The notes under the pieces were generated by a model, which saw only the letters and a list, made by a program, of their open reading frames with translations, made no database searches and was not told the origin of the DNA. 64,000 bases of DNA. Source: Heliomicrobium modesticaldum Ice1. GTDB lineage: Bacteria > Bacillota > Desulfitobacteriia > Heliobacteriales > Heliobacteriaceae. Shown here piece by piece: positions 5,510 through 34,787 of this stretch (positions are counted from its first letter, which is position 1; each line of letters opens with the position of its first letter). Both the position numbers and the translations under genes were made by a program. The stretch spans positions 723,501 to 787,500 of the forward strand of contig NC_010337.2 of NCBI RefSeq assembly GCF_000019165.1, in the 5' to 3' direction.

Positions 5510-6808
5510 ATGCGCATTAACCATAATATTCAAGCGTTAAATGCCTACCGGCAACTGAACAACAACCAGGGCATCGTATCGAAACATATGGAAAAGCTCT
5601 CGTCGGGCTTGCGCATCAACCGCGCCTCTGACGACGCCGCCGGTCTGGCCATCTCCGAACGGATGCGCTCCCAGATCCGCGGCCTCACTGTAGCGGAACG
5701 AAACGGTCTCGACGGTGTATCGTTAATTCAAACAGCCGAAGCCGCCCTTGATTCAGTGCACCAGATGCTCCAGCGGATGCGTGAACTGGCTGTGCAATCG
5801 GCCAACGGGATTTACACCGAGCAGGATCGCAGTGCCCTCCAAGATGAAGTGGACGAGTTAATTAAAGAAATTGACCGTGTTGCCGGGCACACGGAGTTTA
5901 ATACACGCAAGCTGTTAAATGGCAACATGGGAAAAGCCGTCTCAGGAGCTGTAGCTAATATCCAGACGAACAATCTGGTCACCTCTGGCGGAAAGGTTTT
6001 CAGTGGAGCTGCGAAATTAGTCAATTTATCAGACCGTGCAGGGAATAAGTTTGGTGTTGTCTCTGGCGATACGGTACAGCTAAGCTTTGTCGTTAACGGA
6101 AAATTGTTGCAGACAAGTGGAATTAAAATATCCGGCGGCACCACATTTAACAGTGTTATTGGCGCTGCCGTTAAAGACATAAACGGTTCATCTGCTGGAA
6201 ATGTAAGCGGATACTTTAAACTCACAGTAAGCGGAACGAAACTCCACTTTACCGCTGTTAGCGGAGGATATGCGAAAGCTGTATATGGGATTACCTTCAC
6301 CTTCCGTGATGCACAAGGGATCATGAAAACGCCAGCTACCGATGCCCTGTCATCCTTCCATGAAACTCGCCAAGCCTTGGTTAGTCGTCCACCCGGAGAT
6401 GCAACGCTACAGATCGGTCCGAATACCAACCAGCATCTTGGTTTAGAAATTGGTGATGTGACCTCTGCTGCCCTTGGGTTAAAGAGTTACTCCGGCGCGG
6501 AGTTCAATATAAAAATAAACACGCAACAAGACGCCAACATCGCCATCAAAGTCTTCGATGAAGCCATCGCCAAAGTCTCCAAAGAACGCTCCAAACTGGG
6601 CGCCTTCCAGAACCGCCTCGAATACACCATCAACAACCTGAAAGTAGCCAACGAGAGCCTCACCGCCGCCGAATCACGCATCCGCGACACCGACATGGCG
6701 ATGGAAATGACCCAGTTTACAAAGCAAAACATCATCAGCCAATCGGCGACGGCCATGCTGGCTCAAGCAAACCAGCTTCCTCAGGGCATCCTGCAACTGC
6801 TGAAATAA
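5510..6808 (+). CDS. hag: Flagellin 1
   Basis: A 432-aa flagellin. The N-terminal D0/D1 part starts MRINHNIQALNAYRQL and contains [20 protein letters not shown]; the C-terminal part has IRDTDMAMEMTQFTKQNI and ends in LPQGILQLLK. The ~200-residue centre (about 145-355) is Ser/Gly/Thr-rich and variable, as expected for the surface-exposed, glycosylatable domain. The ATG at 5510 is chosen because AAGGAG lies 8 bases upstream and the family begins M(R/I)INHN; an in-frame TTG at 5462 has no such support. It is co-transcribed with the FliS-like gene. It differs clearly from flagellin 2 at 45,035, so the filament may be composite. Confidence 0.95.
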   Translation: MRINHNIQALNAYRQLNNNQGIVSKHMEKLSSGLRINRASDDAAGLAISERMRSQIRGLTVAERNGLDGVSLIQTAEAALDSVHQMLQRMRELAVQSANGIYTEQDRSALQDEVDELIKEIDRVAGHTEFNTRKLLNGNMGKAVSGAVANIQTNNLVTSGGKVFSGAAKLVNLSDRAGNKFGVVSGDTVQLSFVVNGKLLQTSGIKISGGTTFNSVIGAAVKDINGSSAGNVSGYFKLTVSGTKLHFTAVSGGYAKAVYGITFTFRDAQGIMKTPATDALSSFHETRQALVSRPPGDATLQIGPNTNQHLGLEIGDVTSAALGLKSYSGAEFNIKINTQQDANIAIKVFDEAIAKVSKERSKLGAFQNRLEYTINNLKVANESLTAAESRIRDTDMAMEMTQFTKQNIISQSATAMLAQANQLPQGILQLLK

Positions 6809-32577: not shown

Positions 32578-32757
32578 TCAGGATATCTTTTTGGCGTTCT
32601 CTATGGCGCGTGGGTCGAAAGCACGAATCACTGCACCTTCGACTAAAAGCTGATTAATGATTGAGATGGCGGCTGACTCACGCATATCGTCAGTTCCTGA
32701 TTTGAAAGCCAGGCTTAGAATGCCGATGCGCCTACCCGCTAAAGGCGGTTCAACCCC
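32578..32757 (-). pseudogene. Nucleotide-sugar 6-dehydrogenase, C-terminal remnant
   Basis: Minus-strand translation of this gap gives EPPLAGRRIGILSLAFKSGT, then DDMRESAAISIINQLL and AVIRAFDPRAIENAKKIS, ending in TGA. This is the signature start of the C-terminal domain of UDP-glucose/GDP-mannose dehydrogenases (GLAFKxxTDDxRES). Upstream there is a stop and no further homology, so only about 60 residues survive. It suggests a uronic-acid sugar was once made in this region. Confidence 0.75.
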
Positions 32758-32858
32758 CTAATTCTAGAGCGTAGACCCCTTATTCGCTGTTTTTCGTAGA
32801 GTCTCACAAAATTGACGATTGCGCTGATTCGGGGGGCTGCCGTCACCGCCTCTTACAG

Positions 32859-32945
32859 GTTCCTATACAGACCAACGTCTATCAAGGGCAAGGGCTTCGC
32901 CACGCCTTCGGCGTCCCTTGACAGACGTCGGCCTGTATAGGGAAC
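32859..32945. other. Large imperfect palindrome (30-bp arms)
   Basis: Left arm 32,859-32,888 and right arm 32,915-32,945 are inverted copies (GTTCC-TATACAG.CC.ACGTCT.TCAAGGG), with one bulged base, three transitions and a 26-base loop. In a minus-strand transcript all three mismatches become G-U pairs. No gene overlaps it, and it lies between the dehydrogenase remnant and the IS3 fragment. It could be an insertion-element end, a small structured RNA or a terminator-like element. Confidence 0.75.
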
Positions 32946-33011
32946 GTCAATTAGGCGGTCGACGTCGGGCTTTGCGCTTTAGCCTGCCTGGTCTATAGTC
33001 CGGTACCTATG

Positions 33012-33352
33012 CTACAGTGTGACAATAAAAGCGGGTACGTTCCCATCCGCCATCTGTCGACAAAACTCCGCAGGGGACATATTGTAGAGGCTGCCGTGGA
33101 TTCGCCTCTGGTTATAAAAGTCAATGTATTCTCCGACCACTTGGTAGGCGTCTTGGTAGGATTCAAAGGTATGCTTGATGTAGCACTCGCGTTCCAGATT
33201 TGCATAAAACGATTCGATATGGGCGTTTTTGTTCGGCGTCTTCGGGGGAATTCGTTCGTGTTCAACCTGGTATTGTTCGCACGTTTCCTCAAACACACGG
33301 CTGATAAACTGCGGTCCATTGTCGGTTCGCACAATTGGCTTCTTTTCTTTTT
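33012..33352 (-). pseudogene. IS3-family transposase OrfB, 3' fragment
   Basis: Translation gives KEKKPIVRTDNGPQFISRVF, RIPPKTPNKNAHIESFYANL, AYQVVGEYIDFYNQRRIHGS and YNMSPAEFCRQM, the C-terminal part of the rve integrase core with the catalytic DNGPQF (Asp) and NAHIESF (Glu). The N-terminal two-thirds is missing; the sequence stops at the end of the ISL3-like element. A 193-bp part is repeated at 35,790-35,982. Confidence 0.85.
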
Positions 33353-34693: not shown

Positions 34694-34720
34694 TTTTATC
34701 AAAGATGCGTGGGTTCTGAC
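34694..34720 (+). repeat. 27-bp direct repeat, copy A
   Basis: TTTTAT(C/T)AAAGATGCG followed by TGGGTTCTGAC occurs here and at 37,711-37,737 with one mismatch. The pair brackets the FkbM gene and the broken DDE transposase. Probably old element ends or a duplicated flank. Confidence 0.7.
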
Positions 34721-34752
34721 GTCGACCAAACATCGAACGTTGTTTGGTCGAC
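34721..34752. repeat. 11-bp perfect inverted repeat
   Basis: GTCGACCAAAC (34,721-34,731) and GTTTGGTCGAC (34,742-34,752) with a 10-base loop lie just downstream of the FkbM gene's 3' end and directly after repeat copy A. It could act as a weak terminator for the minus-strand gene, but has no T-run. Confidence 0.55.
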
Positions 34753-34787
34753 GTTGAGGCCGGTGCTTCCGTAAACAGGCGTAATGA

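Follow-up and report, generated by a model that had tools for sequence, protein, structure and literature searches.

A 124-nt hairpin was found at 32841-32964 on the minus strand of the window, the 64,000-nt stretch of the Heliomicrobium modesticaldum Ice1 genome that was analysed, within an insertion sequence of the IS3 family. The hairpin is real, selected and strand-specific. We propose, at a probability of roughly 57%, that it may be an open-promoter mimic that is folded from single-stranded DNA and acts in cis as a single-strand origin, from which the complementary strand would be primed via RNA polymerase. Fold, strand bias, covariation, promoter-like spacing, mean bubble position and distribution over mobile elements were all computed for the hairpin and are presented below.

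The hairpin and its host element

The starting point was a palindrome whose arm differences were all said to become G-U pairs on the minus strand, and both claims were borne out. The inverted repeat has 27-nt arms at 32862-32888 and 32915-32941 that are 89% complementary and separated by 26 nt. Folded as RNA over 32855-32950, the minus strand reached -59.5 kcal/mol (z -8.7), compared with -46.5 (z -6.7) for the plus strand, and an equally good fold was obtained in 0 of 200 shuffles for either strand. The corresponding DNA folds over 32841-32964 reached -41.2 (z -9.8) on the minus and -36.3 (z -8.2) on the plus strand. Folding of both strands confirmed that only the minus strand turns the arm differences into G-U pairs (G.T in DNA); on the plus strand they are A.C, and single mismatches are present in the plus-strand fold alone. 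The minus strand, on which the hairpin folds, is also the transposase-coding strand in the window copy. The extent originally given was adequate for the core palindrome but not for the full element, of which the palindrome is the inner part, as an outer stem (32954-32964 with 32841-32850) extends beyond it. Covariance model R1 matches the whole element at G000:C1:756339-756467.

Read 5' to 3' along the minus strand, the element begins with the outer stem 5' arm CGTCgACCGCC (32954-32964), which has one bulged base and would form the downstream duplex of the promoter mimic. The 5' (putative template) side of an internal loop follows (32941-32953) and contains TAAT as in most aligned copies. The 5' arm of the core stem, GTCAAGGG (32915-32922), leads into an apex made of two small hairpins, A (32902-32914) and B (32893-32901), each with a C-GAA-G triloop. 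On the return side, a -35-like TTGATA (32880-32885) lies inside the CCCTTGAT arm of the core stem. It is followed by a 17-nt spacer (32863-32879), paired in the fold, and by the 3' (putative non-template) side and edge of the internal loop (32851-32862) with a -10-like GAACCT, which reads GACCCT in most copies and GANNNT across the family. The outer stem is completed by its 3' arm GGCGGTGACG (32841-32850). The window copy consequently reads TTGATA-17-GAACCT, and a few extra pairs narrow its internal loop in the DNA fold.

The element had been thought to stand alone in a gene-poor stretch. It was instead located within a truncated copy of an IS3-family element, here termed IS-A, that retains about 612 bp (32741-33352) and adjoins an ISL3-family transposase. 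The complete element is 1606 bp long, and its assignment to the IS3 family was established by Pfam on copy L009, in which OrfA (HTH_Tnp_1) and OrfB (rve) overlap. Four IS-A copies are alike over the whole 1606 bp, while OrfB is reduced to its 3' part in the window copy (33012-33332, minus strand; Pfam rve_3 3.7e-16). The TAG stop of this transposase is followed by 47 nt, the hairpin and then the right end of the IS at 32746-32784 (minus strand), which ends ...GGGGGTTGAACCG and is common to the four full-length copies. As the right end is 56 nt away from the hairpin, the earlier suggestion of an IS end was abandoned: the hairpin is not a terminal inverted repeat at the IS boundary. Nor is the window copy a free-standing MITE with its own terminal repeats and target duplication and no transposase, as had also been suggested, since it is part of the body of an IS3-family element.

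The recommended genome search for further copies gave seven hairpins in total, five in IS-A and two in an unrelated element that encodes an rve/Mu-C transposase and an AAA ATPase. The two host elements have only about 142 bp in common. Within the same taxonomic family, the covariance model found the element in 7 of 9 genomes. The model match started 41-48 nt past the last OrfB codon in all eight IS-A-type matches that reached the query end, a count that leaves aside the 7 of 15 OrfB matches in these genomes not reaching it. OrfB relatives followed by the hairpin were found down to a protein identity of 74%. A segment of about 142 bp shared by two unrelated ISs within a single genome, along with short versions that have no transposase, is what an independent mobile palindrome of the MITE or REP type hitch-hiking in insertion sequences would leave. 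This explanation is very improbable given the single fixed site after OrfB in 8 of 8 IS-A-type copies with that end, the end repeats that the best-delimited short elements (L046 and L052) possess outside the hairpin, and a geometry that recurs across phyla.

Short hairpin repeats, seven in number, were observed in three related genomes (G003, G006 and G007): L046 1393-1746, L052 1393-1746, L056, L041, L054, L034 and L047. Their common blocks, about 150-354 bp long, enclose the hairpin, and no transposase was seen nearby. In L046 and L052, which are alike over 354 bp, inverted GAGCCAC/TTCCGG motifs flank the hairpin on both sides; terminal TG[AC]ATA repeats were noted by eye, as was a 7-bp target duplication of one short element. 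These repeats look like IS21-type MITEs. A second strong palindrome, with 17-nt arms that are 2 nt apart and 94% complementary, is found in the window at 34719-34754 near the ISL3-family transposase.

A blastn search of 32700-33100 against a plasmid collection gave no match. Rfam covariance models gave no hit in the window at gathering score, and a lax search of 32700-33020 returned only 12.4 bits (E 4.9). A resemblance of the CCUAA loop to the twister ribozyme was dropped as no Rfam match was obtained.

Selection on the fold within the family

Selection on the fold was evaluated in an alignment of 11 copies. In these, 95.1% of the cells pair, a value reached in 0 of 500 shuffles. Changes on both sides of a pair were observed in 7 of 43 pairs, which was matched by 9 of 500 shuffles; counted by cells, both-sided changes occurred in 16, a number that 0 of 500 shuffles reached and for which slid versions gave at most 8. 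Compensatory changes among copies, as the original prediction had asked for, are accordingly present, and its view of the transition bias between the arms as a mark of selection fits selection on the folding of one strand.

The arrangement of the hexamers was followed in a wider set of 17 family copies. These derive from 24 loci, from which L058-L060, belonging to another family, were left out and L034, L041, L047 and L054, having no TTGA at the corresponding site, gave no row. The 17 include near-identical pairs, and only L055 is from the present genome, the IS-A copies of the window not being among them. The model strand folds better in 17 of 17 copies, a bias that is partly circular as the strand was picked by covariance-model score. 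The 3' arm reads TTGANN-17 nt-GANNNT. TTGA was required for counting and its presence is no independent evidence (4 of 21 loci were without it); GANNNT was found in 16 of 17 copies, the sole exception being the decayed copy L044. A(-11) and T(-7) were each present in 16 of 17. In the fold, duplex covers both the -35-like hexamer and the spacer, the internal loop contains the -10-like hexamer, and a transcription start would fall about where the outer stem begins. A stable hairpin with one strand favoured, and -35 and -10 elements at promoter spacing with an opened -10 region, are features of single-stranded DNA promoters and single-strand origins; both were found, the latter in the Heliobacteria-type copies and in the mean profile of the wider class described below.

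Related hairpins in other phyla

A scan for the core pattern GTCAAGGG-N14-40-CTTGCCCTTGAC gave at least 118 stretches in one genome collection and 21 in one viral collection. The sample comprised 139 loci, of which 136 had 70-nt flanks (3 were dropped) and fell into 66 clusters. A hairpin was formed in 38 clusters, and 28 of the 66 failed the hairpin filter, which covers only nt 1-14 outside the core. TTGAC and CAAGGG were imposed by the search pattern and their conservation in this set is no evidence. Among the matches listed, similar hairpins were found in several phyla in ICEs, in IS3-, IS110-, IS256- and IS21-type elements, in Rep elements and in phage contigs.

Bubble calling from minimum-energy folds was too noisy, with no bubble in 30 of 59 clusters, a core that did not form in 7, and 22 calls that were widely placed, and pairing probabilities were used instead. 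In the 38 clusters the mean pairing probability after CCCTTGAC was 0.59-0.89 at nt 1-19, 0.28-0.44 at nt 20-29 and 0.50-0.65 at nt 30-43. The mean profile is thus open from about -11 to -2 before pairing returns, in a region that the filter did not select. The full geometry, comprising all three criteria, was present in 12 of 38 clusters versus 0 of 47 control hairpins (Fisher 2e-5), the controls being other hairpins of the same loci that passed the same filter and merely fray outward. At least one geometric criterion was missed by 26 of the 38 filter-passing clusters. With a manually entered -10 weight matrix, the score of the right arm was higher than that of shuffles (p 0.0035) and higher than that of the left arm in 23 of 38 clusters (p 0.03); the left-arm score was no different from shuffles (p 0.58).

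In 32 of 38 clusters the better fold was that of the strand set by the pattern (p 2e-5), and neutralising the apex left this number at 32 of 38. GNA triloops were present in 21 of 42 cases on the folding strand versus 1 on the opposite strand (Fisher 5e-7). C-GNA-G loops form very stable DNA minihairpins. These results bear on a structured RNA in the 3' UTR of the transposase, for instance a 6S-like RNA-polymerase decoy or a stability element. 6S RNA itself imitates an open promoter, and the sense strand is very stable, with G-U pairs and covariation. Nevertheless, no Rfam family matched, a -35-like hexamer and GNA triloops are more readily understood as features of DNA, and the pattern strand of the IS110 set runs antisense to the transposase gene, all of which makes an RNA of this kind improbable. 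The small structured RNA that had been suggested originally holds as far as the strand-specific stem goes; in place of its transcript of about 90 nt, the triloops, the promoter-like spacing and the association with mobile elements, of which some have a single-stranded DNA stage, fit folded single-stranded DNA better.

Neighbouring genes were named by Pfam. They include ArdA and ParB (the ICE-like set), a serine recombinase, a G2P-type Rep, IS110, IS21 IstB, IS256 and IS3, as well as three tyrosine integrases, a relaxase/DUF3363, NikA/MobC and, below the Pfam cut-off, Rep_trans; the relaxase locus (L087) belongs to a cluster failing the hairpin filter. Some members adjoin ordinary chromosomal genes such as TilS, DNA_alkylation, an ABC transporter and serine dehydratase. 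Phage_integrase, Transposase_mut, IstB and rve lead among 75 neighbouring proteins of the hairpin clusters, and rve, phage and ISL3 families are present among 61 proteins of the non-hairpin clusters. This comparison covers the best 25 of 68 and 25 of 76 families, and the non-hairpin set holds real members and is no clean control.

An ICE-like set (L155, L175, L083 and relatives), mostly on contigs of Oscillospiraceae or Clostridia, has the hairpin between parB and genes including ArdA and accounts for 32 of the 136 pattern loci in the sample. In L164, L070, L132 and L073 a G2P-type Rep, the hairpin and a serine recombinase are close together (by Pfam in L164 and L070, by blastp cluster in the others), and a transcript from single-stranded DNA would run towards the recombinase gene. 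IS110-type genes end 37-105 nt from the core-pattern site in L110, L166, L191, L118, L177 and L185, with Pfam run on L110 only. Viral contig L183 carries a reverse transcriptase (RVT_1) gene at 390-2438 together with a class hairpin and a tyrosine integrase.

Orientation was compared in phage contigs and insertion sequences. The coding strand of filamentous phages is the virion strand. In phage contig L193 the hairpin lies between a Zot-domain gene and a weak Rep_trans gene, all on the plus strand; in L187 secretin, Zot and Phage_GPA are on the minus strand with the hairpin, and in L181 Phage_GPA and the hairpin are on the minus strand. The foldable strand is therefore the strand coding the named genes in all three, of which only L193 is in a filter-passing cluster, L187 and L181 forming one cluster that failed the filter. 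A further viral contig, L194, has terminase and portal genes and is a double-stranded-DNA phage. For IS3-like genes at most 200 nt from the hairpin (n=14, blastp clustering), 8 were upstream on the foldable strand, 3 were reversed, and the other 3 overlap the hairpin or sit to its right on the same strand. IS110-linked hairpins were reversed relative to the transposase gene in 6 of 6 cases. Filter-failing clusters hold 3 of the 6 IS110-linked and 2 of the 3 reversed IS3-linked elements.

These orientations also bear on an outward-facing, conventional double-stranded promoter near the right end of the IS, serving flanking genes or the transposase of the circle, with a palindrome that is incidental or modulating. 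In the IS3 copies TTGANN-17-GANNNT does point outward to the right end, and ArdA is downstream when the hairpin is read in this way. GANNNT is however a poor -10 box for double-stranded DNA; the two -10 bases that sigma flips out are those kept in it. Furthermore, an incidental palindrome is not expected to show both-sided changes or a bubble at -11 to -2, and in the IS110 set such a promoter reads into the transposase in antisense. We consequently regard a double-stranded promoter as distinctly unlikely.

A candidate single-strand origin

We infer binding of RNA polymerase, priming and a step towards the IS circle as follows. Once single-stranded, the transposase-coding strand of the IS would fold into the hairpin and imitate a sigma-70/sigma-A promoter that is already opened. 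The parts of this mimic would be TTGAnn as a -35 box within duplex, a spacer of 17 nt that is likewise duplex, a preformed bubble that contains A(-11) and T(-7), and duplex again downstream. The hairpin could then be bound by host RNA polymerase, and a short transcript made on the 5' arm, in the direction of the 5' side of the folding strand, would be extended by DNA polymerase into a complementary strand. In this manner a single-stranded IS copy displaced in copy-out transposition may be turned into a double-stranded circle that is able to integrate.

The anatomy is of the same kind as that of Frpo, and a hairpin that drives gene transcription from incoming or displaced single-stranded DNA, with no priming, was considered first. 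ArdA, an anti-restriction gene, and serine recombinase genes adjoin members of the class, in agreement with such a function. Its standing was lowered since gene starts are not consistently on the transcribed side: it is the 3' ends of the IS3, IS110, IS256 and IstB genes that adjoin the hairpin, and the recombinase set (L070, L164, L132), in which a gene start does lie on this side, is an exception. In addition, a transcript from the best-folding strand would be antisense to the IS3 transposase gene, which it would enter at the 3' end. Gene expression of the Frpo type is therefore unlikely. Priming of DNA synthesis is preferred over it because the RNA would be antisense to the IS3 transposase and no gene of the element starts at the hairpin in the IS110, IS256 and IstB contexts.

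Some observations count against a single-strand origin. The folding strand is not always the transposase-coding strand, the ArdA gene of the ICEs is on the side that a double-stranded promoter would serve, and members of the class are found beside ordinary chromosomal genes and in a double-stranded-DNA phage (L194). The proposal is also slightly weakened by the strand comparison in phages, as two of its three contigs belong to the cluster that failed the filter. To our knowledge IS3 relatives of E. coli have no such hairpin, and it therefore cannot be essential to copy-out in general.

Single-stranded DNA promoters of the Frpo/ssi type are known from F and ColIb-P9 (Masai & Arai 1997, as cited in excerpts of PMC11541004 and PMC9849209), and the same excerpts describe Frpo as folding into a stem-loop that carries the -10 and -35 boxes. 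As far as these descriptions go, the present element resembles them in being a long hairpin of single-stranded DNA that would offer -35 and -10 elements to host RNA polymerase on mobile DNA, and differs in its site: Frpo belongs to the leading region of conjugative plasmids, whose leading genes it serves, whereas the hairpin described here is at the 3' end of insertion sequences. The IS3 element lies on a single 3.08-Mb contig and not in the leading region of a conjugative element. No similarity to Frpo1 or Frpo2 of the F type was found when the F leading region was read and folded; the Frpo hairpins of F have an AT-rich apex and no common core, the sole GTCAAGGG of the F stretch being elsewhere.

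In single-strand origins of the RNA-polymerase type, known from rolling-circle plasmids and ICEs, a structure in single-stranded DNA recruits host RNA polymerase and primes the complementary strand (excerpt of PMC4595007), and the minus-strand origin of M13 is likewise a promoter-like template (excerpt of PMC7948647). A comparable position is seen in class member L193, a hairpin on the coding strand of its phage contig that is flanked by a Rep-like gene and by one with a Zot domain. The intergenic virion strand of M13 reads TTGACG-17 nt-TAATAG at about 5758-5786 of the record (L202); no GTCAAGGG/CCCTTGAC core is present in the M13 stretch examined, which is also predicted to fold differently. 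A large intergenic hairpin of M13, at about 5520-5553 of the same record, also ends in a C-GCA-G triloop.

IS3, IS21, IS256 and IS110 elements form circles. For ISs that transpose by copy-out/paste-in, to which the present IS3-family host with its OrfA and OrfB corresponds, the sections seen of PMC7780238 describe conversion of a figure-eight into a double-stranded circle by host replication and a promoter formed at the joined IS ends; these sections contain no description of a promoter-mimic hairpin inside an IS or of priming of the second strand of the circle. In strand-biased integrative elements, replication of the figure-eight can yield single- or double-stranded circles, and nicked double-stranded ones were found (PMC10214605, in part). 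A single-strand origin would turn single-stranded products of the figure-eight into double-stranded circles. In the open-licence papers searched, no description was found of a single-strand origin or similar hairpin inside an IS.

The hairpin is most likely of a known functional kind in an unexpected place, the insertion sequence, with a signature that recurs across phyla. More tentatively, and at somewhat less than even odds, several copy-out IS families may carry their own RNA-polymerase-primed single-strand origin. Its logic would be common to ICEs, rolling-circle elements and certain phages in different phyla, and it would prime second-strand synthesis on the displaced single-stranded copy of the figure-eight intermediate and be kept in miniature derivatives. 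Copy-out transposition is used by a majority of bacterial IS families (PMC7780238), and a hairpin within an IS makes the question of second-strand priming directly testable. If true, the proposal would provide a recognisable signature of sequence and structure for single-stranded DNA promoters and origins beyond leading regions.
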